In this document: positions 21,523 through 43,930 of the stretch, piece by piece
How positions within the stretch are numbered: the stretch's first letter is position 1
Layout: each line of letters opens with the position of its first letter
Source: Micromonospora sp. WMMD1102
GTDB taxonomy: Bacteria > Actinomycetota > Actinomycetes > Mycobacteriales > Micromonosporaceae
Direction of reading: 5' to 3'
Assembly: GCF_029626265.1 (NCBI RefSeq)
Contig: NZ_JARUBN010000001.1
Coordinates: 6,203,001-6,267,000, forward strand
DNA length: 64,000 nt
Made by a program: the position numbers and the translations under genes
The notes under the pieces: generated by a model
The model's database searches: none
What the model was told of the DNA's origin: nothing
Seen by the model: only the letters and a program-made list of their open reading frames with translations

Positions 21523-22490
21523 CCGCCGCACCCATCCTGGCGGTCCGGCGGAGCGTTCCGGGAGTCTTCGTCGCCTTGGCCCTGACCCTGGCGATCGGCG
21601 CCCTGGTGGTCGGGATCGACGGCGGCCAGCTCTTCAACCAGGCGACCACGGTGAGCCTGCTGCACGTCGCCGCCGGGCTCGGGCTCGTCGCCGTCGGGCA
21701 GACCCTGGTCATCCTCGGCGGCTCCCTCGACCTCTCCGTGGCGTACGTGGTCAGCCTCAGTACCCTGCTCGCCGCCGAGACCATGGCCGGCAGCGACGGC
21801 GCACTGCTGCCGGCCGTCCTGCTCGCCCTCGGGGTGAGCGCCGCGATCGGGCTGCTCAACGGGCTCTTCGTCACCCGGCTGCGGGTGAACGCCTTCATCG
21901 CCACCCTCGGCGTCGGGCTGCTGCTGAAGGGTTACCTCGACCACGGGTACGCCGGCCCGGCCGGCAGGACCTCCCCGGCGCTGGTGCAGACCCTCGGCTA
22001 CCAGCGGATCGGCCCGGTGCCGGTGTCGTTCCTGCTGCTGCTCGCCGTCGCCGCGGCAGTCTGGTTCGCGCTCACGCGTACCCGGTTCGGGCACCACCTG
22101 CTCGCCGTCGGCGGCGATCCGGAGGTGGCCCGGCTCTCCGGGGTACGCACCGGCCGGGTCCTGGTCACCGCCCACGTACTCTGCTCGCTCTGCGCCGGGT
22201 TGGCCGGGATCTACCTGGCCAGCCGGCTCGGCTCGGGCGCTCCCCGGGTCGGCACCGAGGGCCTCTACGACCTGGAGTCGATCGCGGCGGTGGTGATCGG
22301 CGGGACCGCGCTGGCCGGCGGGCGGGGCGGCGTGGTCGGCACCGTCGGCGGGGTACTGCTGCTGGCCAGCATCGACGCCGTCTTCAACCAGCTCGAGGTC
22401 GACGCGTTCGTCAAGCAGGTGATCCGGGGCATCGTGATCATCGCCGCGGTCGCCCTCTACGCCCACCGGTCCCTGCGGAAGGCGGCCTAG
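21519..22490 (+). CDS. Sugar ABC transporter permease, RbsC type (first)
   Basis: A 323-aa CUT2 permease (BPD_transp_2) with eight to ten hydrophobic spans. The family signatures GQTLVILGGSLDLSV, LFVTRLRVNAFIATLG, GGDPEVARLSGVRTGRV and VVIGGTALAGGRGGVVGTVGG are all visible. The ATG overlaps the ATPase stop. It is followed with no gap by a second RbsC-like permease, so the importer is probably a heterodimer. Confidence 0.92.
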   Translation: MTAAPILAVRRSVPGVFVALALTLAIGALVVGIDGGQLFNQATTVSLLHVAAGLGLVAVGQTLVILGGSLDLSVAYVVSLSTLLAAETMAGSDGALLPAVLLALGVSAAIGLLNGLFVTRLRVNAFIATLGVGLLLKGYLDHGYAGPAGRTSPALVQTLGYQRIGPVPVSFLLLLAVAAAVWFALTRTRFGHHLLAVGGDPEVARLSGVRTGRVLVTAHVLCSLCAGLAGIYLASRLGSGAPRVGTEGLYDLESIAAVVIGGTALAGGRGGVVGTVGGVLLLASIDAVFNQLEVDAFVKQVIRGIVIIAAVALYAHRSLRKAA

Positions 22491-23474
22491 ATGCAGACCG
22501 TCGAGCGCCCTCCGCTGCGGTCACCGCTGTCCCGGGTACGCCCCGGCGGGCTACTGCCGATCGTCGCCATCCTCGCGCTGCTGCTGGTGCTGGTCGCGGT
22601 CCGGCAGCCCGACTTCCTCGCCCCGCCGTCGCTGATGTCCTTCCTCGGCCGCTCCGCACCGATCATCCTGCTCGCCGCCGGGCAGTACTTCGTGATCGTC
22701 TCCGGCGAGTTCGACCTCTCCGTCGGCTCCCTGGTCACCGCGCAGGTGGTGGTCGCCGCCCGGCTGATCGACAGCGACCCGGGCCGGACCTGGCCGGTGG
22801 TGTTGCTGCTGCTCGCCGCCGGCCTGTTCGTCGGGCTGGTCAACGGCCTGGTCACCACCCGGCTGCGGGTGCCGTCCTTCATCACCACGCTGGGCATGTT
22901 CCTGATCCTCGTCGGCGCGGTGTACCTCTGGTCCGACGGTGCGCCGAGGGGCGGGCTCTCCGAGGAGTTCCGCCGGTTCGGCCGGCGTGCCTTCGAGGAC
23001 GTGCCGCTGCTCGGCCGGGTCCCGTACGCGCTGCTCGTGCTGCTGGTCCTCGCCGCCCTGGCCGTCCTGCTGGGCCGCTCCGACTTCGGCCGGACGCTCG
23101 TCGCCGTCGGCGACAACCCGCGCACCGCCGAACTGGCCGGGGTACGGGTCTGGCGTACCCGGACGATCGCCTTCATGCTCAGCGGCCTCGCGGCGGCGGT
23201 CGCGGCGATCCTGCTCGGCGGCTACAGCGGGGTCTCGTTCCAGGCCGGCGCCGGCCTGGAGTTCACCGCGATCACCGCCGTCGTGCTGGGCGGCGTCGCG
23301 CTGGGCGGCGGCCGCGGCTCGGTCGTCGGCGCGATGCTCGGGGCGCTGACCCTCGAACTGCTCTTCACCCTGATGAATTTCTACGGCGTCTCCGGCGCCC
23401 TCAGGTCGACCGTCCAGGGCGTGATCATCCTGGCCGCCGTGGCGGTCTCGGCAATGCGTTCCTCGTCCAGATAA
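22491..23474 (+). CDS. Sugar ABC transporter permease, RbsC type (second)
   Basis: A 327-aa paralogue of the preceding permease, starting at the very next base after its stop. Signatures GQYFVIVSGEFDLSVGSLVTAQ, VTTRLRVPSFITTLGMFLI, VAVGDNPRTAELAGVRVWRTR and VVLGGVALGGGRGSVVGAMLG are visible. Tandem distinct RbsC-like permeases occur in several actinobacterial CUT2 systems. Function: transmembrane channel for the same substrate. Confidence 0.92.
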   Translation: MQTVERPPLRSPLSRVRPGGLLPIVAILALLLVLVAVRQPDFLAPPSLMSFLGRSAPIILLAAGQYFVIVSGEFDLSVGSLVTAQVVVAARLIDSDPGRTWPVVLLLLAAGLFVGLVNGLVTTRLRVPSFITTLGMFLILVGAVYLWSDGAPRGGLSEEFRRFGRRAFEDVPLLGRVPYALLVLLVLAALAVLLGRSDFGRTLVAVGDNPRTAELAGVRVWRTRTIAFMLSGLAAAVAAILLGGYSGVSFQAGAGLEFTAITAVVLGGVALGGGRGSVVGAMLGALTLELLFTLMNFYGVSGALRSTVQGVIILAAVAVSAMRSSSR

Positions 23475-25720: not shown

Positions 25721-28117
25721 GTGTCCGTACCGTCATCTGCCCCCGGCCGGCGGCGGGTGCTGGCCGGCGCCGCCGCGGCGGCACTGGCCACAGTGGCCCT
25801 CGTCGCCGCCGCACCCTCCCCCGCGTCAGCCGCCACCACCACCCTCTACGCCGCCCCCTCCGGCAGCGGCACCACCTGCTCGGCCGCCCAGCCCTGTTCG
25901 CTGACCGGAGCGCAGACCGCAGTGCGCGGGCTCACCGCCGCGATGTCCGGCGACGTCGTCGTGCAGCTCGCCGACGGGGTCTACCGGCTCTCCGCGCCGT
26001 TGCGGTTCACCGCCGCCGACTCCGGCAACAACGGCTACCGGGTGGTCTGGCAGGCCGCCGCGTCGGCCCGCCCGGTGATCAGCGGCTCCCGGGCGGTCAC
26101 CGGCTGGACCCAGGTCGACGCCGGCCGCAACATCTGGCGGGCCAACGTCGGCGCCGGCACCGAGAGCCGGCAGCTCTACGTCGACGGTGCCATCGCCACC
26201 CGGGCCCGCACCCAGGTCAACCGGGCCGACTTCACCCCGTCCAGCACCGGGATGCGGTTCACCAACAGCGCGCTCAACTACCTGAACAACCTGGCCAACC
26301 AGAGCCGGATCGAGATGGAGAGCGTCGGCTCCTTCACCGACCGCTACTCCCCGGTGCAGAGCATCAGCGGAAACCTGATCACGATGCAGCAGCCGGCCTG
26401 GAACAACAACAACTTCGGGTACGACACCTTCACCAGCCCGCACCGGGCCGGCCCGCTCTACCTGACCAACGCGTACGAGTTCCTGGACGCCGCCAACGAG
26501 TGGTACCTGAACCGGACCACCGGTGACCTCTTCTACATCCCGCCGTCCGGGCAGAACATCAACAACCTCGGCATCGAACTGCCGACGTTGCAGTCCCTGC
26601 TGAACCTCGGCGGCACGTACGACGCACCGGCGCACCACGTCACGTTCAGCGGGATCACGTTCACCGGCACGAGTTGGCTCGGCCCGAGCAGTAACCAGGG
26701 CTACGTCGACCAGCAGACCGGCGCCTACATCGCCGGGAACTGGAGCTGGCCCGCCTTCAGCTCCTGCCACAACGGCTGCCCGCAATTCGAGGCCGCCCGG
26801 CCGAACTGGTTCCAGTCGCCGGCCGCCGTGCAGATCTCCGCTGCCAACAACATCACCGTCACCGACTCCCGGTTCTTCAACCTCGGGCAGACCGCGATCG
26901 GCATCGGCAACGACGCCAACGCGCACGCCAGCGGGGTGGGTCTGGGCGCCAGCAACATCACGATCGACCGGTCCGAGATCGCCCGCACCTCGGCCGGCGG
27001 CATCGTGGTCGGCGGCGTCCGCGCCGACGCCCACCACCCGAGCGACCAGCGGATGACCAACCGGGACATCACAATCAGCAACAACCGCATCCACGACATC
27101 GGCGTGGAGCACCGGGGCATCGTCTCGGTGCTGACCACCTACGTCAACACCGCCACCATCTCGCACAACGAGGTCTACAACATGCCGTACACCGGCATGT
27201 CCATGGGGTACGGCTGGGGCGCCAACGACGCCGGGGGCAGCAACCACTACGCCGACCGTGGCCTCTACAACTACCAGCCGCGCTACTCCACCCCGACCAC
27301 GGCGTCGAACAACCGGCTGATCGGCAACTACGTGCACGACGTGATGCAGCAGATGAACGACGGCGGCTGCATCTACACCCTCTCGGCCAACCAGGGCGGG
27401 CTGATCAGCGACAACTACTGCCTGCGGACCAACGGCTACTTCGGGATCTACTTCGACGAGGGCTCGCGGTACTGGACCGCCCGGAACAACGTCTTCTCGA
27501 ACACCGGCACCTGGGCCACCGCCAACTACTGGTTCGCCGAGAACATGGGCAACTTCACCGTCACCAACAACTGGTCGACGAACAACAGCACGAACGTGAC
27601 GAACGGCGACCGGGGCAACGTGGTCAACAACAACGTCACGGTCAGCGGCGGCAACTGGCCGGCCGGCGCCCAGGCGGTGATGGCCGCCGCCGGGCCGCAG
27701 GGCGGCGGCGACGGACAACCACAGCCGCAGACCGGCCGGATCGTCGGGGCGCAGTCCGGGCGCTGCCTGGAGATCGGCGGATCGAGTACGGCCAACGGCA
27801 CCCAGGCGCAGATCTGGGACTGCGGCACCGGCACCAACCAGCGGTGGACCTACACCAGCAGCGGGCAGCTCATGGTGTACGGCAACAAGTGCCTGGACGC
27901 CAACGGGCAGGGCACCGCCAACGGCACCCTGGCGATCATCTGGGACTGCAACGGGCAGACCAACCAGCGGTGGAACGTCAACTCGAACGGCACCATCACC
28001 GGCGTACAGTCCGGGCTCTGCCTGGACGCCAGCGGCAACGGGACCGCGAACGGCACCAAGGTGCACCTCTGGGCGTGCCACGGCGGCACCAACCAGCGCT
28101 GGACCCTGGGGAGCTGA
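25721..28117 (+). CDS. Secreted right-handed beta-helix protein (GH141-like) with RICIN domain
   Basis: A 798-aa exported protein starting at GTG with TAAGGAGA 7 nt upstream. An arginine-rich signal (GRRRVLAGAAAAALATVALVAAA, possibly Tat-dependent) ends near SPASA. Residues about 40-660 form a parallel beta-helix with many Asn/Gly-rich rungs (NITVTDSRFFNLGQT, NITIDRSEIARTSAGGIVVGG, RDITISNNRIHDIGVEHRG). The N-terminal pattern, with PVISGSRAVTGW and RQLYVDGAIATRAR, recalls GH141 (alpha-L-fucosidase/xylanase) from memory; a polysaccharide lyase is an alternative. Residues 668-798 are a ricin trefoil with three NQRW repeats. It is likely the extracellular enzyme that supplies sugar to the adjacent transporters. 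Confidence 0.75.
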   Translation: MSVPSSAPGRRRVLAGAAAAALATVALVAAAPSPASAATTTLYAAPSGSGTTCSAAQPCSLTGAQTAVRGLTAAMSGDVVVQLADGVYRLSAPLRFTAADSGNNGYRVVWQAAASARPVISGSRAVTGWTQVDAGRNIWRANVGAGTESRQLYVDGAIATRARTQVNRADFTPSSTGMRFTNSALNYLNNLANQSRIEMESVGSFTDRYSPVQSISGNLITMQQPAWNNNNFGYDTFTSPHRAGPLYLTNAYEFLDAANEWYLNRTTGDLFYIPPSGQNINNLGIELPTLQSLLNLGGTYDAPAHHVTFSGITFTGTSWLGPSSNQGYVDQQTGAYIAGNWSWPAFSSCHNGCPQFEAARPNWFQSPAAVQISAANNITVTDSRFFNLGQTAIGIGNDANAHASGVGLGASNITIDRSEIARTSAGGIVVGGVRADAHHPSDQRMTNRDITISNNRIHDIGVEHRGIVSVLTTYVNTATISHNEVYNMPYTGMSMGYGWGANDAGGSNHYADRGLYNYQPRYSTPTTASNNRLIGNYVHDVMQQMNDGGCIYTLSANQGGLISDNYCLRTNGYFGIYFDEGSRYWTARNNVFSNTGTWATANYWFAENMGNFTVTNNWSTNNSTNVTNGDRGNVVNNNVTVSGGNWPAGAQAVMAAAGPQGGGDGQPQPQTGRIVGAQSGRCLEIGGSSTANGTQAQIWDCGTGTNQRWTYTSSGQLMVYGNKCLDANGQGTANGTLAIIWDCNGQTNQRWNVNSNGTITGVQSGLCLDASGNGTANGTKVHLWACHGGTNQRWTLGS

Positions 28118-30002: not shown

Positions 30003-30244
30003 CACGGCACTCCCCGTCACTCGTCCTCGGCGGCATCCCGCCCCGACATCACGAGGGTACTTGTCAGTAACGAAGACATGATATCGGCAGGTGTTCGACG
30101 GCGGCCCCGACGAAGGAACCCGGCGGTCGTACCTCTTGATCTAGGAGTCACGACCTCGTTACATTGCCCTCGGCGCTCATCACGGAGCCGGAGATGTCGG
30201 GGGCACGCGTGGGGAGAACAACGGTTAGAGGGTGAGCTACCCGT
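30003..30244. other. Divergent promoter region before the P450/A-PCP cassette
   Basis: A 242-bp gap between the acyl-CoA dehydrogenase and P450 genes, visibly richer in A/T than its surroundings. It contains a candidate promoter at 30136-30165 for the cassette. No cluster-specific regulator gene is present. Confidence 0.5.
30136..30165 (+). promoter_or_regulatory. Candidate promoter of the P450/A-PCP/TEII cassette
   Basis: TTGATC at 30136-30141, 18-nt spacer, TACATT at 30160-30165, about 80 nt upstream of the P450 start codon. The spacer carries GTCGT...ACGAC inverted repeat arms (30127-30153). Confidence 0.4.
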
Positions 30245-31471
30245 ATGAGAGACATCGACACACCGAAATCATCAGCGCGCGAGTTGAGCATCCTCTCGGT
30301 CCTGGGCCGTCCGCAGGCACAGGACGACCTGTTCCTACGCCTGAATCGAGAGGACCCGGTCCACTGGGACAGGTATGCCGGGCTCTGGCTCGTGTCAGGT
30401 CGCAGCGCGGTCGAAGCCGTGCTGACCGACAAGCGTTTCAGCGCCCGCCGAACGGTGAAGGCCGTCACGTCAACGGCGAGTGACTCCTCCGGGCTGCGCT
30501 CGTTCGTCCACGACGCGATCGCACGGCAGGCGCTCTTCCTCGATGGCCCGGAACACGCCAGGTGGCGCCGGATCATCCACCACGTACTCGAACCCGCGCG
30601 GGTCGCGGCACTCGAGCCGTGGATCGAAGAGGCCACCCGGAGCCTGCTGGCTGACCTGCCCGAGCAGTTCGACCTCGTGGCGACCGTCGCCCGGCCGCTG
30701 CCACTTTCCGTTGTGGTACGGCTACTCGGCCTACCGATCAGCGACGTCGGGGAAATCCAGGAATGGTCGGACGCCTACACCCGCCTGGTCACCGGCGTCA
30801 ACCCGGTCACGGACCCGCAGACGATCTCGCTGGTCGCCGACTTCCTCGGCTACGCCGTCGACGTCGTCAAACTTGGCCGGTCCCGCCGGGGCGACGATGC
30901 CGTCGGCCGGATGGTGGGGGCTGCGGGAGACGCCACCGACCTCGACCTCGCGACGAACCTGGTCATGCTGTTGGCCGCCGGCCACCAGACCACCACGGGA
31001 TTCCTTTCCGCCGCGGTCCTCGACCTGCTCAGCACCGCGCCTCAGCGCATCCCTCGACCGGATCTGGTTGCCGCCGACGTGGAACGGCTGCTGGCCCGGA
31101 TCTCGCCATCCCGGTTCGTGGGCCGCCACGTGGTCGGCGACGTCGACCTCGACGGGCGGTCGCTACAGGCTGGGCACTCCGTCCTCGTGCTGCTCGCCGC
31201 CGCCAACTGGGCTGAAACCAACGGTGACGGCCACGCGGGATCGGCGCACGGACGCCACCTGGCCTTCGGGTTCGGCCGGCATCGCTGCCCAGGCGCACAG
31301 CTCGCCCGCCTCGAGTCCCGCGTCGTACTGCGCCGGATCATCGCCGACCCGAGGGGGCTCTCGCTGGTCGACGAGTCGACACCGTGGTCCGACAACATCA
31401 ATCTCCCGAGTCCGATGTGCGTCCGGATCGCTCGCCGCACCGGACGAACCCCTGCCGGCGCGACCGGCTAG
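30245..31471 (+). CDS. Cytochrome P450 lacking the ExxR motif
   Basis: A 408-aa bacterial P450. The heme-binding loop FGFGRHRCPGAQLARLE gives C348 as thiolate ligand, and the C-helix H104-xxx-R108 pair is present. Two signatures are altered. The I-helix reads AGHQTT (245-250), with Gln where most have Asp/Glu. The K-helix segment that normally reads EExLR is VERLLAR (279-285), so the near-universal ExxR is absent. The following SPSRFVGR and DVDLDGRSLQAG segments align normally, so this is not a frame error. As first gene of a cassette with A-PCP proteins and thioesterases, it probably oxidises a PCP-bound aminoacyl thioester, as NikQ or NovI do. Start ATG at 30245, with GAGGGTGAG upstream. 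Confidence 0.88.
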   Translation: MRDIDTPKSSARELSILSVLGRPQAQDDLFLRLNREDPVHWDRYAGLWLVSGRSAVEAVLTDKRFSARRTVKAVTSTASDSSGLRSFVHDAIARQALFLDGPEHARWRRIIHHVLEPARVAALEPWIEEATRSLLADLPEQFDLVATVARPLPLSVVVRLLGLPISDVGEIQEWSDAYTRLVTGVNPVTDPQTISLVADFLGYAVDVVKLGRSRRGDDAVGRMVGAAGDATDLDLATNLVMLLAAGHQTTTGFLSAAVLDLLSTAPQRIPRPDLVAADVERLLARISPSRFVGRHVVGDVDLDGRSLQAGHSVLVLLAAANWAETNGDGHAGSAHGRHLAFGFGRHRCPGAQLARLESRVVLRRIIADPRGLSLVDESTPWSDNINLPSPMCVRIARRTGRTPAGATG

Positions 31472-31495
31472 CCGACCGTCTGCGGAGGAATCAGG

Positions 31496-33235
31496 ATGAC
31501 CGAACGAACGAGCGTCGACACGACCTTCCGGAAGCGTACGGATGGCAGTGTCATGGGGCTGGTGGCCGGCCAGGTCCGGCGTCGACCAGACGCACCTGCC
31601 GTCGTCGACCACGACCGCATGCTGAGCTACGGCGAACTGGCTGACGCGGCCGACCTGGTGGCAGCGCAGCTGACCGACACCGGCCTGCGACCGGGCGGGG
31701 TGGTCGGGTTGACCGTTCCCCCTTCCGCAACCGCGATCGCCGCCGCGATGGGAGTTCTGCACGCCGGGGGTGTTCTGCTGCCGTGCGACCCGTCCCAACC
31801 GCCGCTGCGCCAGCAGCAGATCCTCCAAAGCTCGGACGCCGGCCTCGTGGTCGCAGCGGGAGCCCGCACGGACGCGGTACAGGTGGTCGCGACCGACGGC
31901 CGCCGCGTCCTGGCAGGTGCGGAGGTCGACCCCGCTTACGTCATCTACACGTCCGGCAGCACCGGTACGCCCAAGGGCGTGGTCTGCTCGCACCCGGCAT
32001 GGGCGAACGTAGCACGGGCTCAGCACGGCATCGTGGGGATCGTGCCCGCCGACCGGGTAGCCCAGCTCGCACCGTGGTGCGTGGACGCCGCCCTGTTCGA
32101 GATGGTGCTCGCCCTGACGGCCGGGGCCACCCTCTGCGTCGCCCGTCCCGAAGACCGGTATCCCGGACCTCCCGCCGAGCGGTTCCTGCACGAGAACGAT
32201 GTGACCGTGGCGGTGATGACGCCGTCGACCCTCCGGGCGCTGCGATCCGAGCGGCTGACGAACCTGCGGTTGATCATCAGCGCGGGTGAGGCGCTGCCGA
32301 CCTCCGTCGCTCGCCCCTGGACCTCGAGCGTGCGGCTGTTGAACGCGTACGGTCCGACAGAAGGGACGATCTGGTCCACCTGGGCCGAGGTCACCGGCGA
32401 TGAGGAAGAAGGAGACGGTACCGCACCGATCGGAATCCCTATCGGTGGCTGCGAGGTCACGGTCCGGGGGCCGGACCTCGAACCGGTCGGGGCCGGTCAG
32501 CGGGGCGAGATCTGCCTCGGCGGGATCGGGGTCGCGGTCGGCTACCTCGACCACGACGACACCGCCGAAGACCGGTTCACCACCGGTCAGGGTGGGCGCC
32601 TCCTCCGGACGGGCGACATCGGCAGCATCGATGCCCAAGGGCGCCTCCTGTTCCATGGCCGCGACGACGACCAGGTGAAACTGGGCGGACTGCGTGTCGA
32701 GCTCGGCGAGGTGCGCGAGGCCCTGCGGTCCCATCCAGCCGTCGACGACTGCGTGGTCCGGCCGGACGGCGGCCGTCTGGTGGCGCACCTCGTCCCGGCC
32801 CGGGACACGTCGGTGGACACCACAGACCTCATCGAGTGGATGGAGCGGCGGCTTCCGCTGGCCATGGTGCCGACGCTCTATGTGGAGATGGATAGCCTGC
32901 CACTCACCGCCTGGGGAAAGGTCGATGTCGCGGCATTGCCGGACGCCTCGGCGGTCCGGCCCCGGACGTCCGTCGATCGAACCCTGACGCCGACGGAGGC
33001 GCTGCTGCTGCGTGTTGCGATCGACACACTGCAGTTCGATCAACTCGGTCCCGACGACGACCTCTTCATGCTGGGCCTGACCTCCCTGTCCCTGGCCCGC
33101 CTGATGGTCGGGCTCAGCGAGGGCGCGGGCATCGACGTCGAGCCGGTCGACATCTTCGAGCATCCGACGATCAGCGCACTCGCGTCCGTGCTCGACGACC
33201 GAGCACGGCTGTCACCCACGCAGCTCGGGAGGTGA
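31496..33235 (+). CDS. NRPS-like A-PCP didomain protein 1
   Basis: A 579-aa stand-alone adenylation plus peptidyl-carrier protein. A-domain motifs: YTSGSTGTPKG (151-161), NAYGPTEGT, LLRTGD, GRDDDQVKLGGLRVELGEVREAL and the A10 lysine in WGKVDV. The carrier motif DDDLFMLGLTSLSL has the phosphopantetheine serine at about 530. Aligning core motifs to GrsA by eye gives the pocket DAFVIAAIW(K), similar to the phenylalanine code DAWTIAAICK, so a bulky hydrophobic or aromatic substrate is likely; this is inference. There is no condensation, epimerisation or MbtH domain. Start ATG at 31496, 24 bp after the P450. Its stop overlaps the next ribosome binding site. Confidence 0.88.
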   Translation: MTERTSVDTTFRKRTDGSVMGLVAGQVRRRPDAPAVVDHDRMLSYGELADAADLVAAQLTDTGLRPGGVVGLTVPPSATAIAAAMGVLHAGGVLLPCDPSQPPLRQQQILQSSDAGLVVAAGARTDAVQVVATDGRRVLAGAEVDPAYVIYTSGSTGTPKGVVCSHPAWANVARAQHGIVGIVPADRVAQLAPWCVDAALFEMVLALTAGATLCVARPEDRYPGPPAERFLHENDVTVAVMTPSTLRALRSERLTNLRLIISAGEALPTSVARPWTSSVRLLNAYGPTEGTIWSTWAEVTGDEEEGDGTAPIGIPIGGCEVTVRGPDLEPVGAGQRGEICLGGIGVAVGYLDHDDTAEDRFTTGQGGRLLRTGDIGSIDAQGRLLFHGRDDDQVKLGGLRVELGEVREALRSHPAVDDCVVRPDGGRLVAHLVPARDTSVDTTDLIEWMERRLPLAMVPTLYVEMDSLPLTAWGKVDVAALPDASAVRPRTSVDRTLTPTEALLLRVAIDTLQFDQLGPDDDLFMLGLTSLSLARLMVGLSEGAGIDVEPVDIFEHPTISALASVLDDRARLSPTQLGR

Positions 33236-33240
33236 TCGAC

Positions 33241-34017
33241 GTGGCCTCCACCACCCCCGCGACCGGCTACGGGCCCTGGTTCAACTATGTCGTCCGGCGG
33301 AGGAAGCCGCGGCTGCGCCTGCTCTGCCTGGCCGGAGCGGGCAGCGGGCCGTCCGAGTTCGCACGCTGGGGCGAGGCCCTGCCGGAGACGGTCGAGGTCT
33401 GGCCGGTGCAGTTGCCCGGCCGGGAGCAACGCATGCGCGAGGCGCCGTGGTCGGACCTCGAACTCATCGTCGCGGCGGTGGCGACGGCGCTGGACGAGGC
33501 GGTCGATCCGTCCGACACGCCGCTGGTGTGCTTCGGTCACAGTTTCGGCGCCCTCGTCATGTTCGAGTGGTGCCAGCGCATTCAGGCGGATGCCCGAGCT
33601 ACGGTCGCCGGCCTGATGGTGTGTGGCCTGGCCGCTCCCGGCCGGCCGGGCGGCCAGCCCGGCGTGGCGGAGCGGAACGACGCCGACCTGCTGGCCTGGA
33701 TCGGTGAGCTGGGCGGCACCCCGCACGAACTGCTGAAACACTCGTGGTTCACCGACTGGCTGGTTCGCGACGTACGCACCGCCTACCAGATCCGCGGGCG
33801 TTACGACGCTTCCCGCACCGAACCGTTGTCCTGCTCGATCGTGGCCTTCGGCGGCGCGGACGACTTCGAGACCAGCGATGCCGACCTCGACGCGTGGGCG
33901 GAGTTCACCCGTTCCCGGTTCCGACGCCACACACTGCCAGGCGGCCACTTCTTCGTCCGGGACTCCCGCGACCGGCTGCTGACCCTGGTACGGGAAGAAC
34001 TAGAGGCGCTGGCATGA
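33241..34017 (+). CDS. Type II thioesterase 1
   Basis: A 258-aa alpha/beta-hydrolase thioesterase that releases acyl groups from carrier proteins. The nucleophile S101 lies in GHSFGA, with D207/D208 in FGGADDFE and H236 in PGGHFF as the likely triad. The LPGREQR motif (about 58-64) is typical of TEII. GTG at 33241 is preferred because GGGAGGTG ends 6-8 nt upstream; a GTG at 33232 would lie inside that ribosome binding site. It sits between two A-PCP genes beside a second, diverged TEII. In nikkomycin-type pathways such an enzyme hydrolyses the modified amino acid off the carrier; alternatively it edits misprimed carriers. Confidence 0.88.
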   Translation: MASTTPATGYGPWFNYVVRRRKPRLRLLCLAGAGSGPSEFARWGEALPETVEVWPVQLPGREQRMREAPWSDLELIVAAVATALDEAVDPSDTPLVCFGHSFGALVMFEWCQRIQADARATVAGLMVCGLAAPGRPGGQPGVAERNDADLLAWIGELGGTPHELLKHSWFTDWLVRDVRTAYQIRGRYDASRTEPLSCSIVAFGGADDFETSDADLDAWAEFTRSRFRRHTLPGGHFFVRDSRDRLLTLVREELEALA

Positions 34018-34799
34018 CCCTGCCGGACTCCGTACGCCGATGGTTTCCCGGTCTGCCGGCGGACCACGGCACACTGCCGACCGTCATCTGCCTCGCCGGC
34101 GCTGGCGGTGGGTCCGGCGAGTTTCGTGACTGGGGCCGCATCCTGCAGGGGAGGATCACGGTCGCGCCGGTGGCGCTACCAGGCAGGGAGCACCGTGTGG
34201 CGGAGTCGCTGCACGAGCCCGCGGCCGCGTTGGCCGACCAGATCGTGCGCGCGGTCGCACCGTTGACCACCCGGCCGTTCGCGTTGTTCGGTCACAGCCT
34301 CGGCGCGCTGCTGTTGTACGAGGTCGCCCGGCGCCTGGACGGCCCGGCCCGCCGGTCGTTGCGCCATCTCTTCGTCGGCGCGCAGCCGGCGCCGAGCTGG
34401 CCGCAGACCGACACGATCTACAGCACGATGACCGACGACGCGCTGATCGCCTATCTTCGCCGCCTCGGCGGTACGCCCGAACCAGTGCTCAACCACGCCC
34501 CGCTGATGGCGTTGTACCTGAAGGTGTTGCGGGCCGACGCCCGGCTGGCGGAGGAGTACGTGTATTCCGGTCCGGCCGGACTGGAATGCCCCCTGACCGT
34601 GTTCCGTGCCGCGCAGGACACCGAAACCCCGCCTCACACGCTGGCCGCCTGGGCGGTCGAGACGTCCGGACCGTTTCGGACCGTTGATCTGCCGGGAGGG
34701 CACTTCAGCCTGAGGACCGACCGCCACCACATCATCGACCGGATGGTTGCATGCCTCGCCGACCCTCCCGTGGGAAGCTCTCCGCAAGGGATCAGTTGA
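34014..34799 (+). CDS. Type II thioesterase 2
   Basis: A 261-aa TEII related to the preceding one but clearly diverged. S95 lies in GHSLGA, D202 in FRAAQDTE and H230 in PGGHFS; LPGREHR is conserved. The ATG overlaps the previous stop (ATGA), so translation is coupled. Two TEIIs beside two A-PCPs suggests one thioesterase per carrier, or one releasing and one editing enzyme. The C-terminus runs close to the next start, with two bases separating stop and the chosen ATG of A-PCP 2. Confidence 0.88.
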   Translation: MTLPDSVRRWFPGLPADHGTLPTVICLAGAGGGSGEFRDWGRILQGRITVAPVALPGREHRVAESLHEPAAALADQIVRAVAPLTTRPFALFGHSLGALLLYEVARRLDGPARRSLRHLFVGAQPAPSWPQTDTIYSTMTDDALIAYLRRLGGTPEPVLNHAPLMALYLKVLRADARLAEEYVYSGPAGLECPLTVFRAAQDTETPPHTLAAWAVETSGPFRTVDLPGGHFSLRTDRHHIIDRMVACLADPPVGSSPQGIS

Positions 34800-34801
34800 A
34801 C

Positions 34802-36673
34802 ATGTTCGACAAAATCGATGCGCGCGTGCTGGCGTGGAACCAGACTGCGACCGCCTATCCCCGGGACGCGAGTCTGGTCGCTCTGTTCGATGAAAGCGCC
34901 CGGCTGGCCGGCTCGGCGTGCGCGGTCGTGGACGGCGATCGTAGCCTCGACTATCAGGAACTCCACGCCAGGTCCAACGGCCTCGCACACGTGCTCGAGG
35001 CGGGCGGCGTCCGGGGCCGACGCGTCGGCGTCCTCGGCAAGCGCTGCGCCGACGCTGTCGTGGCCATGCTCGCCATTCTCAAGGCGGGAGGCGCGTACGT
35101 GCCCCTCGACGACTCGTACCCGCCGGCGAGGCTGCACTCGATGCTGGAGGCGGCAGGTGTGGGGTGTGTCGTCGTTTTGCCCGGCCAGGAGTCCGCGCCG
35201 TCGATGTCGGTGCCGACGTTCGACGTGGGTGACGCGTCCTGCCCCGACCCGCCGCGCTCGGCCAGCGAGGCCCGCGGCGAAGACCTCGCCTGCGTCATGT
35301 TCACGTCCGGCTCCACCGGCCAGCCGAAGGCGGTCGGCATGCGGCACCGCAACATATCGAGGCTTGCGATCAATTCCGATTTCACCACGCTCGACGGTAC
35401 GGACCGGGTGCTGCACGCGTCGTCGCCATCGTTCGACGCCTCGTTGTTCGAGATCTGGTGTGCGCTGCTCCGGCAGGCCGGGCTGGTCGTGCTGCCGTCG
35501 AGCACCCTGCTGTCGCCAGGCGACTTCCAGGCCGCCATCCACCGCCACGGCATCACCACGGCATTCCTCACCACCGCCGTCTTCCACTACCTCGCCCGGC
35601 GCCGCCCCGGCATCTTCGGCGAGCTGCGTGAGCTACTCGTCGGCGGTGAAGTGGTCAATCCGGAGCGGGTTCGGCAGGTCCTGTCGTCCCGGCCGCCCGG
35701 CCGTCTCGTTCACTGCTACGGGCCAACCGAAGGCACGACCTTCACCACCACGTACCCCATCACCAAGCTGCCGGCCAGGCAGGCGAGCATTCCCATCGGC
35801 CGCCCGATCGCGAACGCGGCCTGCTATGTGCTGCGCGCCGACGGGACGCCGGCGGACGTCGACGAGTCGGGTGAGTTGTGGATCGGTGGCGACGGCGTAA
35901 CCGCGGGCTACCTCAACGATACGGCCCTGACGGCCGAACGATTCCGACCGGACCCGTTCGACACCGACCCGTCGGCACGCCTCTACCGCACCGGTGACCG
36001 GGCATTGTGGCGGGCCGACGGCGTCATCGAGTTCCTCGGTCGAGTGGACACCCAGATCAAGATTCTCGGCCATCGTATCGAGCCCGCCGAGATCGAGTAC
36101 CAGTTGTGCCAGGAGGAAACGGTCGCCGAGGCCGTGGTGACACGCGAGGAGAGTGACGAGGGAGAGGCGGTACATCTGGTGGCGCATATCGTCCCGGTCG
36201 ACGGGGCGAGCGTCGGCGCGGCGGCATTGCGCCGCTCGCTGGCACAGCGCCTGCCGACCTATCTCGTACCGACGCGGTTCCACGAGCTGGATCGACTACC
36301 GCTGTTGCCGTCCGGCAAGGTCGACCGCGCGGCGCTGCCGTCCGCACGCCCCGCCGCCCCGCCGACGCGGGATGGCGTCCTGGAACAGACCGTCCGGCTC
36401 GCGTGGTTGTCAGCCCTGGCCGGCAGCGGAATCGACCCGGACTTCGACGCGCGGAGCACGCTTTTCGAACTCGGCTGCGGCTCGCTGGACCTCATCCGGA
36501 TCCACGATCAGGTCGCGTCGTTGTTCCCGCTCCCCGACCTGTCGGTGACGGACCTCTTCGCCCACCCGTCCCTGCGCGCCTACACGATCCACCTTGCCGG
36601 CATGCTCGACCGAGCCTCGGCCCACACCGCCGCAGACGAGTCGACCGGTGGTGCATACATAGACCTGCCATAG
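34802..36673 (+). CDS. NRPS-like A-PCP didomain protein 2
   Basis: A 623-aa adenylation plus carrier protein. Motifs: MFTSGSTGQPKAVG, SFDASLFEIW, HCYGPTEGTTF, YRTGDRALW, GRVDTQIKILGHRIEPAEIE and SGKVDR; carrier motif STLFELGCGSLDL with serine at about 561. The eye-aligned specificity pocket is DAFFLGCTF(K), near the known Val (DAFWIGGTFK) and Ile (DAFFYGITFK) codes, so a beta-branched aliphatic amino acid is predicted. There is no condensation or thioesterase domain. ATG at 34802 (MFDKIDARV) has AAGGGA 10 nt upstream; an ATG at 34751 would overlap TEII by 49 bp. Last gene of the cassette; a 20-residue acidic tail follows the carrier domain. Confidence 0.88.
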   Translation: MFDKIDARVLAWNQTATAYPRDASLVALFDESARLAGSACAVVDGDRSLDYQELHARSNGLAHVLEAGGVRGRRVGVLGKRCADAVVAMLAILKAGGAYVPLDDSYPPARLHSMLEAAGVGCVVVLPGQESAPSMSVPTFDVGDASCPDPPRSASEARGEDLACVMFTSGSTGQPKAVGMRHRNISRLAINSDFTTLDGTDRVLHASSPSFDASLFEIWCALLRQAGLVVLPSSTLLSPGDFQAAIHRHGITTAFLTTAVFHYLARRRPGIFGELRELLVGGEVVNPERVRQVLSSRPPGRLVHCYGPTEGTTFTTTYPITKLPARQASIPIGRPIANAACYVLRADGTPADVDESGELWIGGDGVTAGYLNDTALTAERFRPDPFDTDPSARLYRTGDRALWRADGVIEFLGRVDTQIKILGHRIEPAEIEYQLCQEETVAEAVVTREESDEGEAVHLVAHIVPVDGASVGAAALRRSLAQRLPTYLVPTRFHELDRLPLLPSGKVDRAALPSARPAAPPTRDGVLEQTVRLAWLSALAGSGIDPDFDARSTLFELGCGSLDLIRIHDQVASLFPLPDLSVTDLFAHPSLRAYTIHLAGMLDRASAHTAADESTGGAYIDLP

Positions 36674-37179
36674 CGGTAGTGGCGCGGTCGACCCGGCGCC
36701 CCGGGGCGGGCTGGGGAATCCGACACCGGTTCCCGTTCCGGCCGTGCCCTGGCCGATCAGCCGAGCCGAGCAAGGAGCCGATCAACCGACATAATCACCT
36801 GACGGGCGTCAGGAAGTGCCCTCTCTGGGCAGAAGGGATAGGAGTGCCTTCCCCTGCGGCCAGCCGCCCGCCTGCCTGCAGGTGGGGCATCCTGGGTCGT
36901 TGAAAGTACGCCTAACAGTAGAAATAGGGGGAATAGCCGCGATGCCGGGCGGTCCGGATGACCGGTACGCTGTGAAGATGCCGACCGAAGGTGCACCGGC
37001 AAGCGCGGTCCGCGTAGGCTCAGCGCTTGTCGTCCCGGCACCGGCGGCCACCCACCGGCCGAGCGCCGTCGACACCAGGTGAACAAGGCCCACAATGTCC
37101 GACATCGGCGCCCGCCTCCGGCGCCGAACTCCCACCGCGACGCAATGAAGCGCCGCCACTGCGAGCGGAGAACACAGGC
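36674..37179. other. Intergenic region after the A-PCP cassette
   Basis: A 506-bp gap. It contains a CCTGACG-GG-CGTCAGG inverted repeat at 36798-36813 and some AT-richer promoter-like DNA near 36905-36935. A possible 46-codon frame runs from an ATG at 36942 (AGGGGGAA upstream) to 37082, but with no recognisable similarity. No terminator with a clear stem directly after 36673 was found. The right half is probably the leader of the UDP-sugar dehydrogenase gene. Confidence 0.4.
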
Positions 37180-38836: not shown

Positions 38837-41800
38837 GTGAGTACGACGTACCAGTGCTCCTCGTGCGGCCGCGAGATCGAGGCGGCGCCGTACTGCCCGA
38901 ACTGTGGGGCGGAGCAGCTCCAGTGGGCCGACGACGTGGCCCGGATCGAGCGCTCGATCGCCGAGATGAAGATCCGCGAAGCGGCGATCGCCAAGGAACA
39001 GAAGACGATCGCCTCGCAGATGCAGGCGGCGCTCTTCCAGCGGGACATCCTGTCGCACGCCGCCGACCAGCGACGCAAGCAGAGCACCAAACCCCGCCGG
39101 GTGCTCCGGCGCAAGGCCGGCCGCCGGCCGCCGACCGCCGCGCCGGGCAGCGCGCCGGGCGGGCCGCCGCCCCGGGTGCCCCGCCAGCCCCGCGGCGGCG
39201 GCCCGGACCGGATGCCGCCGGTCGCCCCGCCACCGCCGCCACCGCCGCCGCCGGGCGCCGAACCGTCCTGGGACGACGGCAAGGCCCGCCCCGAGGCGTC
39301 CACCCTCGAGGTGCAGAACATCCTGCTCGGACTCGGGGCACTGCTGCTCGGCGTCGCGGCGGTGGTCTTCGTCGCCGTCGCGCTCAGCTCGTTCGACGAC
39401 TTCAGCCGGGTGGCGATCCTGGTGCTGGCCACCGCGCTGATGCTGGCCGCGCCGCCCCGGGTGGCCCAGCGTGGGCTGGTCGCCACCGCCGAGACTGTCG
39501 CGGCGGTCGGGCTGCTGCTGGTGCCGCTGACCGGGTACGCACTCTGGACCGTCGACCGGTTCGGCGACAGCGGCCTGCCCGGCTCGATCTTCGCCGGGCT
39601 GACCTTCCTGGTCACCACCGTGGTGGCGGCCGGCTACGCCGTGGCGACCGGGCTGAACGCGCCCCGCTACGCCGCCGTACTCGCGGTGCAGCCGGTCCTG
39701 CCGCTGCTGGCGTACTCCTGGGTGACCGGGCCGGCCGGCTGGGCGGCGGTACTCGTGGCGGTGGCGGTCGGCAACCTCTACCTCGCCCGGCTCTTCGGCG
39801 ACGACGGCCGGCTGACCGGCTGGCCCGCCCGGTTCCGGTTCGGCCCACAGGCCGGTGTGGACGCCCCGCCCGCGCCGCCGCGCCGCCCCGACGGCCGGCC
39901 GGGGCGGGCACCGGCCGACCCGACCGACGACCCCGACCGGGACACCGGGTCCGGGCCGGCCGCGACCGGACCGGACCGGCCGGAGACCTTCCCGGAGGAG
40001 GCGGACGCGGTCGTCCAGGCGGATCCGCCCCAGGACGGGCCGGTGCAGCGGGTCCGCACTCCGGGCGTCCGCCCGCCGGCCGGCACCCCGGGTGCCCGGC
40101 CGACGACAAGCACGCCGTGGGTACGCGAACTGGCCTGGACCCTGCACGGGGTCGCCTTCGCCGTCGCCGTGATCTGCGCGGTGATCGCCCTGGTGGACGC
40201 CGACACGGTGCCGGGCGCGGCCCGGGCCGGCCTGGCCCTGCTGCTCGCCGCCGGAGTCGGCCTGGTCGGCGCGCTGGTACTGCGCAGGCCACCGCTGCCG
40301 GACGTCGCCGCCGGAATCCTCACGCTGGCCGTGATCGGCGCCGCCGGCCGGGTCGCCGCGGTGGCCCTGCCGGGGCGGGCACTGGTGGTGATCGCCGCCG
40401 TCATCGCGCTGACCGGACTCGGCGTACGCGCGGTGCCCGAGGCGGCCCGGCGCGGCCCGCAACTCGCCTCCGCCGCCGCCCTGATCGTGATCGGCATCGT
40501 GGTGGCCGGCGGCGCGCTGCGGGCCGCCCTGGCCCCGATCCGGGCCGCGCTGCCGGTCTGGGAGGCCGACCTCGCCGAATATCCCGGAAAACTCGCCGCC
40601 GGGGTCGGCGACACCTCCTGGCAGCTCGTCGTCACCGCACTGCTGCTCACCATCGCCGCAGTGCTCTCCTCGCCACCCGAGGTACGCCGCGAGTTCGCCG
40701 TGGTCGGCGCCGCGCTCACCGCACTGGCCGCCCCCGCCTCGCTCGGGCTCGGCTGGGCCGCCGCGCCCTGGCCGCCGGTGCTGGTCGCGGTCGGCATCGG
40801 GCTGGTCGGGCTCACCGCGCAGACCCGACGGGCCGCGCTGACCCACGCCGTCGCCGCCGCCGTGGTCGGCCTCGCCGGGGCGGCCGCCTCGGTGGTCCGG
40901 CCCGGCCTGACCGCCGCCGTGCTCTTCGCACTCGCGCTCGGCGGCGCACTCGTCGCACTCGCCCCGCTGGCCCGTACCGCGCCGCTGGGCCGGTACGCCG
41001 GGCTGGTCGGCGACTGGGCGGCCGGCGGGGCCGCGTTCGCCTTCCCCGGCGCGGTGGCGTCCTTCGTCGCCTCGGCGGTACCCGTCGACCCCACCCCGAC
41101 CGTCCTGTCGACCCGCGAGGCCACCGAGCCGGTGCTGGCCGCCAGCTTCCTCGCCGTCTGCGCCGTACTCTGCTACGCGGCGGTCACCCAGGTGGCCCAG
41201 CGGCAGATCAGCGGGCCGCTGGCCGTCGGCACCGGCCTCGGTGCGCTCGCCGTCACCGCGGCGGCCTTCGGCGCACCCGGCGCCACCCTGCCGGACGCCC
41301 TGGTCGGCGGGTTGCTGCTGGTCAGTGCGATCCTGCTGGTGCTGGCGCCGTCGATCGACGCCGGCCGCCGGGCCGACCGGCTGCTCGACGGCTCGGACAT
41401 CGCCGCCGCGGCCGTCACCGCCGCCCTGGTCGGCACCCTCGCCCGGATCGCCGGCATCCTCGGCGACGGAGCCGAACTGGCCGCCGCCGCCTTCCTCATC
41501 CTGGTGGTGGCCGCCGGGATCCGGGCCATGCCGGCCGACTGGCGGCGCGGACCGGTCCTCGGCATCTCGCTCACCGGCGGCATCGTCGCGCTGCTCGCCG
41601 GCGCGACGGCGGCCAGCGGCGGGCTACAGGTGCTGGCCACCCCCGGCCGGCTCTGGGAGGCCGACCTCTCGCAGTGGCACGTCAGCCCGGACGGCACCGG
41701 CTGGCAGGCCCCGGTCGCGCTGCTCCTGCTGGCCGGGGCCGCCGCGATCGCCCTGCCCCGGCCGTGGGCGTACGACGTGTCCGCGGTCTGCGTCGGACTC

Positions 41801-43930
41801 GCCACCATCGGCATCCCGGCGGCGTTCGGGCTGCCCTGGTGGTCCCCGATCGTGGTCGGCGGTGCCGTCGCCACCGTCTACGGGGTGAGTTCCGTCGTCG
41901 CCACCGACCCCCGGGCCGGGCTGGCCCGGGCCACCGTGGCCGGCGTGGTCGCCCTGCACGCGGTCGGCACGAGCCTGGTCCGGCCGTGGACGACCGCCGC
42001 CGCGCTCGGCATCGTCGCGCTGATCGGCGCCGTCGTCGCCACCCTCGCCCGGGTCGTCGGCACCCTCTCCGGTCCGGCCGAGGAGGACGACTCCTGGTCG
42101 ATGCCGCCACAGACCGCGCTGATCGGCGGGATCGCCGCCGGCGGGGGGCTGTTCGCGCTCACCGGGGCGCTCGCCTCGCTCGCCGCCGCGCTGGACTGGC
42201 CGGCCGAGGTGGTGGTGCTGGCCACCCTCGCCGGGGCCAGCCTCGGCGTGGCGGTGGTCGGACTGGTCCGCCGGCAGGTCCCGCAGTACCTCCCGTACGC
42301 CACGGTGGGCATCGTCGGCGGCGCGACCGCGACCTCGGTGGCGGCCCTCTTCACCGGCCTGCCCTGGGGCGTCTACGCCGCCTCGGCCGTACTCCTCGGG
42401 GTGCTCGCCGAGCTGGTCCGGGCGGTCACCCCGGCACCTACCCCGCTGCGGGAGCCGATCCGGCGCTGGTCGGTGATGCTCGGCGGGGCGCTCCGCCGGC
42501 TGCCCGAGCCGGCCCGGGGCGGCCGCTGGTCGGTCAGCCCCGCCGTCGGGGCGATGCTCGCCGCCGTCCTGCCGACCGCGCTCGCGGTGGCCGCACTGGC
42601 GCCCGCGCTGGTGGTGGCGCTTGTCGAGCCGTACCAGACGCTCACCGGGATCTGGGCCGGGCCGCCGGCCGCACTCACCGACCCCGAGCCCGGTGCCGCC
42701 GACCCCGGCAACGTACTCGCCGCGCTGCTGCTGACCATCGCCGCCGGGCTGGCCGCCACCGGGTTCGGCGGCGGCCGGCCGGCCCGGGCGGTGCCGGTGG
42801 TACTCCCCGGTGCCGCGATCACCCTGCTGATCGCCCCGATCTCGCTCGACCTGGGCTGGCCGAACGTCACCCTGGCCGCGCTCGGGGTGTTCACCATCGC
42901 GATGCTCGGGCTGGCGCTCACCCCGCCGCCGCCGGACGCCGAGATCGCCCGCTCGCTGCGGCTGACCCGGATCCTGGTCTTCGGCATCGGGCTGGCCGCC
43001 GGTGGTGCCGGGCTGGCCGGCGCGCTCGCCACCCGGGAGCTGACCCTGTTCACCCTGGGCGCGGCGGTCGGGGTCGGCGCCGTCGCCGCGCTGGGCGGCC
43101 GGAGCCAGAACGCCCGCATCCTCGGCTGGCTCTTCGCCTCGGTGATGGCCCAGACCTTCGTCTTCACCGCCGGGCTGGTGTTCGGCCTCGACCCGGCCTG
43201 GTCCGCCTTCGGGGTACTGGCGGTGGGCGCGATCCTGCTGCTGGTCGCCGCGCTGCTGCCCCGACTGCGCCGTCCGGAGGCGATCCGCGAGGCGACCACC
43301 GTGGAGTGGAGCGGGTACGCCGCCGCGCTGATCGCCGCCGCGCTCGCCTACGACTCGCCCCGGCACATCGCCGCACTCCTCGCCGCCTGGGGTGCCGTGC
43401 TCGGGATGGCCGCCGTACGCCCCTACCGCAGTACCGTCGAGCGGCGCACCCTCTTCTGGTCGGCGGTCGGCTGCGAGGTGGTCGCCTGGTGGCTGCTGAT
43501 GGCACTCGCCGACGTGGCGCTGCCGGAGGCGTACACGCTCGTCTTCGCCGTGCTGGCCCTGCTGGTCGGCCTGCTGGAGCTGCGGCACCGCACCGACCTG
43601 AGCAGCTGGGCGGCGTACGGGCCGGCGCTGGTGGCGGCGTTCCTGCCGACCCTGGTGATCGTGCTGGCCGGCAACGACAGCGCGCTCCGGCAGGTGTTGC
43701 TGCTGCTCGGCGGGGTGGCCACACTGATCTGGGGTTCCTACCGCCGGCAGCAGGCCCCGGTGATCATCGGGGCGGTGGTCACCGCGCTGGCCGCGCTGCG
43801 TGCCCTGTTCAGCTTCGGTCCGTGGCTGGTGCTGATCCCGGTCGGCCTGCTGCTGCTGGCGTTCGGGGCCGGCAACGAGAACCGCCGCCGCACCCAGGAG
43901 CGCCTGCGCGCCGTACGCGGCATGCGCTGA
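38837..43930 (+). CDS. Giant zinc-ribbon polytopic membrane protein (SCO7613 C-terminal domain type)
   Basis: A 1697-aa protein of unknown function. Residues 5-27 form a zinc ribbon (CSSC then CPNC). Residues 30-75 look like a coiled coil (ARIERSIAEMKIREAAIAKEQKTIASQMQAALF). A Pro-rich stretch follows, with a run of nine prolines near residue 135. From about 155 to the end there are several dozen hydrophobic segments rich in Ala, Leu, Val and Gly, broken by one long polar loop (about 335-430) and short polar gaps. This is the actinobacterial family with an SCO7613 C-terminal domain. Start GTG at 38837, GGAGGGG 8 nt upstream. The product is Ala-rich with no catalytic motif; envelope roles are guesswork. 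Its stop codon begins a 13-bp tandem repeat. Confidence 0.8.
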   Translation: MSTTYQCSSCGREIEAAPYCPNCGAEQLQWADDVARIERSIAEMKIREAAIAKEQKTIASQMQAALFQRDILSHAADQRRKQSTKPRRVLRRKAGRRPPTAAPGSAPGGPPPRVPRQPRGGGPDRMPPVAPPPPPPPPPGAEPSWDDGKARPEASTLEVQNILLGLGALLLGVAAVVFVAVALSSFDDFSRVAILVLATALMLAAPPRVAQRGLVATAETVAAVGLLLVPLTGYALWTVDRFGDSGLPGSIFAGLTFLVTTVVAAGYAVATGLNAPRYAAVLAVQPVLPLLAYSWVTGPAGWAAVLVAVAVGNLYLARLFGDDGRLTGWPARFRFGPQAGVDAPPAPPRRPDGRPGRAPADPTDDPDRDTGSGPAATGPDRPETFPEEADAVVQADPPQDGPVQRVRTPGVRPPAGTPGARPTTSTPWVRELAWTLHGVAFAVAVICAVIALVDADTVPGAARAGLALLLAAGVGLVGALVLRRPPLPDVAAGILTLAVIGAAGRVAAVALPGRALVVIAAVIALTGLGVRAVPEAARRGPQLASAAALIVIGIVVAGGALRAALAPIRAALPVWEADLAEYPGKLAAGVGDTSWQLVVTALLLTIAAVLSSPPEVRREFAVVGAALTALAAPASLGLGWAAAPWPPVLVAVGIGLVGLTAQTRRAALTHAVAAAVVGLAGAAASVVRPGLTAAVLFALALGGALVALAPLARTAPLGRYAGLVGDWAAGGAAFAFPGAVASFVASAVPVDPTPTVLSTREATEPVLAASFLAVCAVLCYAAVTQVAQRQISGPLAVGTGLGALAVTAAAFGAPGATLPDALVGGLLLVSAILLVLAPSIDAGRRADRLLDGSDIAAAAVTAALVGTLARIAGILGDGAELAAAAFLILVVAAGIRAMPADWRRGPVLGISLTGGIVALLAGATAASGGLQVLATPGRLWEADLSQWHVSPDGTGWQAPVALLLLAGAAAIALPRPWAYDVSAVCVGLATIGIPAAFGLPWWSPIVVGGAVATVYGVSSVVATDPRAGLARATVAGVVALHAVGTSLVRPWTTAAALGIVALIGAVVATLARVVGTLSGPAEEDDSWSMPPQTALIGGIAAGGGLFALTGALASLAAALDWPAEVVVLATLAGASLGVAVVGLVRRQVPQYLPYATVGIVGGATATSVAALFTGLPWGVYAASAVLLGVLAELVRAVTPAPTPLREPIRRWSVMLGGALRRLPEPARGGRWSVSPAVGAMLAAVLPTALAVAALAPALVVALVEPYQTLTGIWAGPPAALTDPEPGAADPGNVLAALLLTIAAGLAATGFGGGRPARAVPVVLPGAAITLLIAPISLDLGWPNVTLAALGVFTIAMLGLALTPPPPDAEIARSLRLTRILVFGIGLAAGGAGLAGALATRELTLFTLGAAVGVGAVAALGGRSQNARILGWLFASVMAQTFVFTAGLVFGLDPAWSAFGVLAVGAILLLVAALLPRLRRPEAIREATTVEWSGYAAALIAAALAYDSPRHIAALLAAWGAVLGMAAVRPYRSTVERRTLFWSAVGCEVVAWWLLMALADVALPEAYTLVFAVLALLVGLLELRHRTDLSSWAAYGPALVAAFLPTLVIVLAGNDSALRQVLLLLGGVATLIWGSYRRQQAPVIIGAVVTALAALRALFSFGPWLVLIPVGLLLLAFGAGNENRRRTQERLRAVRGMR

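Follow-up and report, generated by a model that had tools for sequence, protein, structure and literature searches.

A recurring, locally gained cassette of two A-PCP didomains and an unusual cytochrome P450, with no condensation gene in its operon, in Micromonospora sp. WMMD1102

Five predicted genes, all on the + strand, occupy positions 30245–36673 of the window, by which we mean the whole 64,000-nucleotide (64-kb) stretch of Micromonospora sp. WMMD1102 DNA that was analyzed. Open reading frames and Pfam scores above the curated cut-offs confirmed the tightly packed order of a P450, an A-PCP didomain, two type II thioesterases and a second A-PCP didomain that had been reported in a preliminary description of this DNA, and since the domain matches exceeded the Pfam cut-offs, chance open reading frames were rejected. 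The cytochrome P450 gene, P450a (30245..31471), scored 43.7 bits for the P450 family against a cut-off of 22.8. It is followed after a gap of 24 bp by the first didomain gene, A1-PCP (31496..33235), which overlaps the first thioesterase gene, TE1 (33232..34017), by 4 bp; TE1 in turn overlaps TE2 (34014..34799) by 4 bp. Both thioesterases matched PF00975, and their Ser-Asp-His residues were located (GHSFG in TE1, GHSLG in TE2, each with the Asp and the His). Two start candidates were read from the reading frame of the second didomain gene, A2-PCP: an ATG at 34751, giving a 49-bp overlap with TE2, and an ATG at 34802, 2 bp past the TE2 stop, which is the more likely start (34802..36673).

Both didomain proteins matched AMP-binding, AMP-binding_C and PP-binding, and the motif check showed that the core motifs of the A domain were kept in A1 as well as in A2; by Pfam and motif check, an A-PCP didomain with intact A motifs and the PCP serine is present in the window. 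The PP-binding match of A2 was weak (22.5 against a cut-off of 20.8) and is absent from the precomputed Pfam list of the identical protein P0207; the PCP serine is retained in the motif LGCGS. The A2 PCP is divergent.

When the five proteins were searched with Pfam at E 0.001, no match to the condensation, ketosynthase or transglutaminase families was obtained, which sets the cassette apart from an NRPS assembly line, and no MbtH gene was found in the cassette. The condensation family PF00668 gave 23 matches in the genome and none in the window, the nearest (C1:6358931) being about 119 kb downstream of the cassette end. The proposal of a condensation-free cassette for loading, oxidation and release was therefore upheld for these proteins.

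The flanks of the cassette were compared by blastn with the corresponding loci of six congeners (L043–L048), to which the flanking DNA is 82–92% identical. A segment at 30051..36907 is missing at this site from all six, which carry other gene content there; its limits lie at about 30050 and at 36908–36969, and the exact edges differ among congeners by some tens of bases. The same interval holds 2.4–7.3 kb of other DNA in the congeners, and in five of the six it contains an open reading frame of 950–974 aa (84–92% alike mutually), of which the L044 copy, the one scanned, matched Peptidase_M14; with a simple gene picker, no such frame was found in the 2.4-kb interval of L047. None of the five cassette proteins had a match at E 1e-3 among the proteins picked from the six intervals. 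The cassette was thus gained at this site, as the earlier suggestion of transfer had implied. That suggestion came from base and codon use, and this difference was also borne out: GC3 is 0.84–0.87 in the five cassette genes vs a median of 0.938 for 25 hand-chosen flanking open reading frames (3 of which are equally low, at 0.83–0.85), and codons of the listed rare set make up 6.1% vs 3.1%. The gain is better shown by the six congener loci than by GC3 and codon use. No direct repeat of at least 10 bp was found between the compared junction zones, no repeat worth note within either zone, and no tRNA within the window. The flanking genes for an acyl-CoA dehydrogenase and, on the opposite flank, a UDP-glucose dehydrogenase were considered as cluster members and rejected, as both are present in all six congeners without the cassette and have the usual GC3; the UDP-glucose dehydrogenase protein is 92–97% to the six congeners.

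To follow the cassette beyond this genome, P450a was used for searches. As a single query (E 1e-40) it found its own genome only among 61 genomes, a scan of genome contigs yielded one poor relative (L010, 28%), and the plasmid collection gave no match at E 1e-30. A profile of the P450a family revealed two further carriers, G1269 and G1386, which belong to genus g50 of family f8, a family other than that of the window within the same taxonomic order. For the profile searches, in which the genome draws overlap and mostly 4 to 15 candidates were scored per genome so that misses are possible, the matches at E 1e-75 were the own genome only of 300 in its own family (299 others without), G1269 only of 301 in family f8, G1269 and G1386 of 150 in genus g50, 0/392 in the genus of G083, 0/198 in the genus of G132, and 0/35 and 0/140 in two further families. 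Looser cut-offs brought in 33 of 296 genomes at E 1e-50 and 76 of 118 at E 1e-15; since the best of these matches besides the own genome reached 232 bits vs 507–557 bits for the three carriers, they were taken as general P450s.

The operons of G1269 and G1386 each encode, on one strand, P450b, P450a, A1-PCP, TE and A2-PCP, so that the core P450a/A1-PCP/TE/A2-PCP is common to the window and both relatives. This core is highly diverged. Between G1269 and G1386 the identities are 45% for P450b, 59% for P450a, 65% for A1, 65% for TE and 54% for A2, and the values of the window against the two relatives are 41 and 38% for P450a, 43 and 46% for A1, and 38 and 37% for A2. The single TE of each relative, assigned as type II by Pfam in G1386 and by BLAST in G1269, resembles TE2 (36 and 40%) more closely than TE1 (32 and 28%); TE2 is likely, by this resemblance, the counterpart of the relatives' single TE, and TE1 has no counterpart in either operon. 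The Ser-Asp-His residues were also found in the G1269 TE, and in the G1386 TE the pattern recovered the Ser and His and misplaced the Asp. Of the window's order P450/A-PCP/TEII/TEII/A-PCP, the two relatives have the core P450/A-PCP/TE/A-PCP without the pair of thioesterases. Because one TE is present in both relatives, the doubled TE does not belong to the conserved core and was rejected as a defining trait. The single P450 is not conserved either, as both relatives carry P450b in addition. Of the view that loading and release are doubled around one P450, the two A-PCPs stood in all three loci read, while the doubled release and the lone P450 did not.

Two A-PCPs and no condensation gene in the operon were found in all three loci read (window, G1269 and G1386). 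It had been stated beforehand that a condensation gene within the operon of relatives would overturn the condensation-free proposal; neither of the two relatives with a readable operon has one. This absence is claimed for the operons and not for the whole stretches, because Pfam covered selected proteins rather than every open reading frame (11 proteins from G1386 and 6 from G1269). About 9 kb upstream of the G1386 cassette lies an NRPS protein in which two condensation stretches are combined with an A-PCP and a TE domain, and between this protein and the cassette are nitrile hydratase subunits, a FIST protein and, by eye, apparent molybdate-uptake genes; downstream are a zinc-type oxidoreductase and a KAS III-like protein. 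The surroundings of the G1269 operon include a WYL-type regulator, a racemase-like protein, a reductase and a radical SAM/SPASM protein.

P450a adjoins A1-PCP in 3/3 loci, and the two are joined in a single protein of 890 aa, P0104, whose parts are 44% and 42% to the window pair; the fusion, whose P450 part is without the N-terminal region, is possibly an effect of gene calling. P450a has 13 relatives on contigs above 5 kb in length; 8 of them were matched to an A1-clade protein on a contig of exactly equal size, and 5 of these 8 also share the organism name. The other five (P0009, P0012, P0019, P0020 and P0022) had no A1 entry of equal contig size among the matches listed, which are 120 of 3126 and proteins of limited length. 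The miss for P0020 is a gap in the matches listed, as its 97%-identical counterpart in G1269 adjoins A1. P0009 and P0012 are encoded on contigs of 7.8 and 7.9 Mb, and their A1 may be part of a protein too large for the length limit, which would weaken the condensation-free picture.

P450a of the window keeps the heme Cys348 and the I-helix Thr, has Gln248 in place of the I-helix acid, and has no in-register K-helix ExxR. These states recur in the family: the heme Cys and the I-helix Thr are kept in 24/24 members, and Gln replaces the acid in 24/24, vs Glu or Asp in 58 of the 64 outsiders (P0023–P0086). An ExxR pattern was found in 2/24 members, off register, vs 56/64 outsiders; at the position of the ExxR Arg the family has Ala, Thr, Val or Ser. 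The segment preceding the heme Cys is also shorter (median 26 residues vs 31 in the 64 outsiders). As judged from these motifs, P450a is not a plain monooxygenase, and ordinary hydroxylation cannot be assumed, because the family lacks both the in-register ExxR and the I-helix acid. CYP157 P450s are reported likewise to lack the Arg in the ExxR region, where they have EVLW, EQILW or EQSLW (PMC3599690); P450a differs from this description in the residues found there and in having also lost the I-helix acid. Among the matches listed in a structure look-up (50 + 50), OxyD, P450sky and NikQ were not named, and among the 60 of 401 chains listed by sequence no member of the Sky32/OxyD/OhmL family was recognized; neither result excludes anything.

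The specificity codes of the A domains were read by alignment at nine pocket positions, which are those of GrsA. The window and G1386 share the A1 code DAFVIAAIW, which in G1269 is DAFVLAAIW; 20 of the 32 A1 relatives P0088–P0119 read DAFV(I/V/M)AAIW and 12 have other codes. The code agrees with the GrsA Phe code at 6 of 9 positions, and this Phe-like code is common to the three loci. The A2 codes are DAFFLGCTF in the window, DALFLGCII in G1269 and DALFIGCIV in G1386, which appear Val/Ile/Leu-like in the three loci and Val/Ile-like in the window.

A tree of 67 A-PCPs was built to place the didomains. The A1 didomains of all three loci fall in an A1 clade of 34 rows at 100/100. The window A2 joins 18 of the 19 rows P0208–P0226 (all except P0223) at 100/100, and it lies within a 26-row group (100/99) that excludes the A2 pair of the relatives, in a tree with a midpoint root and weak deeper forks in which only two A2 groups were sampled, one-sidedly with respect to the kin of the relatives' A2. 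The group line of the tree reports 1 change for the three A2 rows; it compares them against A1 rows only and is uninformative on the A2 grouping. On the separate grouping, and with caution given the one-sided sampling, the window A2 was rejected as an ortholog of the relatives' A2. Tree and codes suggest that the window and the relatives acquired their second loaders independently of each other, though with similar aliphatic codes, and such separate recruitment gives reasonable grounds to think that a second aliphatic amino acid is important.

The novobiocin pair NovH/NovI and the nikkomycin set NikP1/NikQ/NikP2 use one A-PCP with a P450 to form a beta-hydroxy amino acid on the carrier. The cassette resembles them in combining an A-PCP with a P450 and differs in having two A-PCPs; one A-PCP per cassette, as in the Qui18/Qui15 and NovH/NovI kind, was found in none of the three loci. 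P0148, named NovH in its source, lies outside the A1 clade and reads DATVVAAVC vs DAFVIAAIW in A1. The earlier comparison with the NikP1/NikQ/NikP2 and NovH/NovI kind is supported in the tie of the P450 to an A-PCP, including the P0104 fusion; the P450 itself is unusual in lacking the in-register ExxR and the I-helix acid. A further likeness is offered by the beta-hydroxytryptophan cassette of quinomycin/echinomycin (Qui18 A-PCP, Qui15 P450, Qui14 TEII and Qui5 MbtH), in which hydroxylation of Trp is reported to occur solely while it is bound to the PCP, with a type II TE as the proposed releasing enzyme (PMC3578932). Aromatic loading, an on-PCP P450 and a TEII would be shared with that cassette, here as predictions from sequence. 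By its description, the Qui cassette has one A-PCP, needs the MbtH protein and lies inside an NRPS cluster, unlike the present one with two A-PCPs, two TEs and no NRPS. Sky32, OxyD, OhmL and Ecm12 are described as P450 beta-hydroxylases of PCP-bound amino acids, OhmL having 52–57% similarity to the other three (PMC6920865); their likeness to P450a lies in the presumed PCP-bound substrate and is one of description rather than of sequence comparison.

Gene content, shared core, P450–A1 pairing, motif states and the gain at the site were computed, and on them a working of the cassette can be proposed. We consider it somewhat probable that the cassette modifies aminoacyl carriers, with a first amino acid oxidized on its carrier and a second one loaded as its partner. 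As its motifs and code suggest, A1 would activate an aromatic (Phe-like) amino acid and load its own PCP. P450a would dock on the aminoacyl-A1-PCP and oxidize it, most simply at the beta-carbon, as the co-occurrence, the one fusion and the known analogues suggest. A2 would, by its code, charge the second PCP with a Val/Ile-like, branched aliphatic amino acid, TE2 would release the product, and TE1 would be a local extra, probably for proofreading or serving the other PCP. As three operons pair two A-PCPs and have no condensation gene, a single product, or a single downstream user, seems to require both residues. Counting against the proposal as a whole are the loss of the in-register ExxR and of the I-helix acid throughout the P450a family, the lack of an MbtH gene in the cassette, the divergent PCP of A2, the five P450a relatives with no A1 entry of equal contig size among the matches listed, and the other codes of 12 of the 32 A1 relatives.

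Such a product could also be a conjugate formed without condensation, in which TE2 (or TE1) acts as an acyl transferase or the oxidized first residue attacks the second thioester to give a dipeptide, an ester or a diketopiperazine. The differently coded A-PCP pair without a condensation gene in 3/3 operons argues for this, as does the separate recruitment of A2, by which the second aliphatic loader looks selected for; plain hydrolysis of an unmodified Val/Ile-PCP would, moreover, be futile. Both TEs of the window, however, resemble ordinary type II thioesterases, type II TEs are not known to make such bonds, and no comparable system was found in a non-exhaustive search of the literature, so that we regard the conjugate as unlikely. 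Direct joining of the two loaded amino acids in general is put at unlikely to rather unlikely, and it is rather unlikely that the cassette is a minimal two-residue synthetase, in which two A-PCP-loaded amino acids would be joined without a condensation domain after modification of one by a P450 without the in-register ExxR and the I-helix acid, the bond being made by the TE-like enzymes or the P450. Alternatively, one or both modified amino acids might be supplied in trans to an assembly line encoded elsewhere in the genome. The 23 condensation-domain matches elsewhere offer room for this, and the Qui18/Qui15/Qui14 cassette does feed an NRPS according to PMC3578932. That cassette, however, sits in its NRPS's own cluster, whereas about 119 kb separate the present cassette from the nearest condensation match, the NRPS of G1386 stands about 9 kb upstream behind the nitrile hydratase and FIST genes, and the present cassette was acquired locally and has no known partner among the resident genes; supply in trans thus appears doubtful.

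Compared with aminoacyl-carrier modification by a monooxygenase, P450a might instead be a peroxygenase-, isomerase- or scaffold-type P450-like partner of A1-PCP. The Gln in place of the acid in 24/24 members, the ExxR in 2/24 off register and the short stretch before the Cys point that way. The Cys and Thr, however, are kept in 24/24, and CYP157 members without the ExxR Arg are still counted as P450s in PMC3599690, and we hold this role for P450a to be a low probability. Finally, the local gain, the atypical codon use and the lack of any match to P450a at E 1e-75 among 299 further genomes drawn from the own family would also fit a decaying or silent acquired island, but all five genes have open reading frames and lie close together, their catalytic motifs are preserved, and the gene order is kept in relatives despite large divergence, which makes decay very improbable.

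No paper found in the literature search was recognized as describing the cassette, and no claim is made that it is unpublished. The cassette is real, recurring and locally gained, and it is a variation on A-PCP/P450 cassettes already known, in which the P450 belongs to an unusual family. That family, coherent, tied to one A-PCP type and with two hallmark motifs lost, is a good test of the function of these motifs. A recurring two-loader operon without a recognizable joining enzyme raises the question of how, or whether, carrier-bound amino acids combine without a condensation domain.

The interval between the acyl-CoA dehydrogenase and UDP-glucose dehydrogenase genes, which flank the cassette, is a variable site: in six congeners (loci L043-L048) it spanned 2.4-7.3 kb and differed in gene content. 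An ORF of 950-974 aa was located inside it in five of the six, and the single congener copy that was scanned was a Peptidase_M14 protein; this ORF is absent from the equivalent place of the window genome. Elsewhere in the window, the gene at 25721-28117, which encodes a 798-aa protein with a ricin-type beta-trefoil lectin at the C-terminal end and a weak GH141-like stretch, was matched in L044 at 95% DNA identity, with no match in the remaining five congener stretches (L043 and L045-L048). The ABC transporter operon at 20002-23474 (an ATPase and two BPD_transp_2 permeases) looks sugar-type. The sole match of the 1697 aa ORF at 38837-43930 was DUF2157, weak and under the cut-off; the GC content of this ORF is very high (∼78%).

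In both relatives carrying the related operon, a second P450, namely P450b, was found upstream of P450a (L032:19582-20000 together with L033:1-1411, minus strand, in G1269; L035:14559-15734 in G1386). The two copies matched each other at 45%. Both ExxR and the heme Cys were kept in P450b, and the usual acid-Thr pair was missing from the I helix (AAYAPLT and AAHTPLA). Close to the G1269 cassette, a radical SAM/SPASM protein (L032:711-2213) resembles, by eye, a mycofactocin gene.

Among the A1 relatives, sub-clades (P0103, P0111-P0114, and P0116-P0119) showed the divergent codes EAFVIGSIA, EGFVIASIA, and DALRIG(T/A)IV, in two of which the usual Asp235 was replaced by Glu. These sub-clades possibly represent related cassettes with a different substrate.
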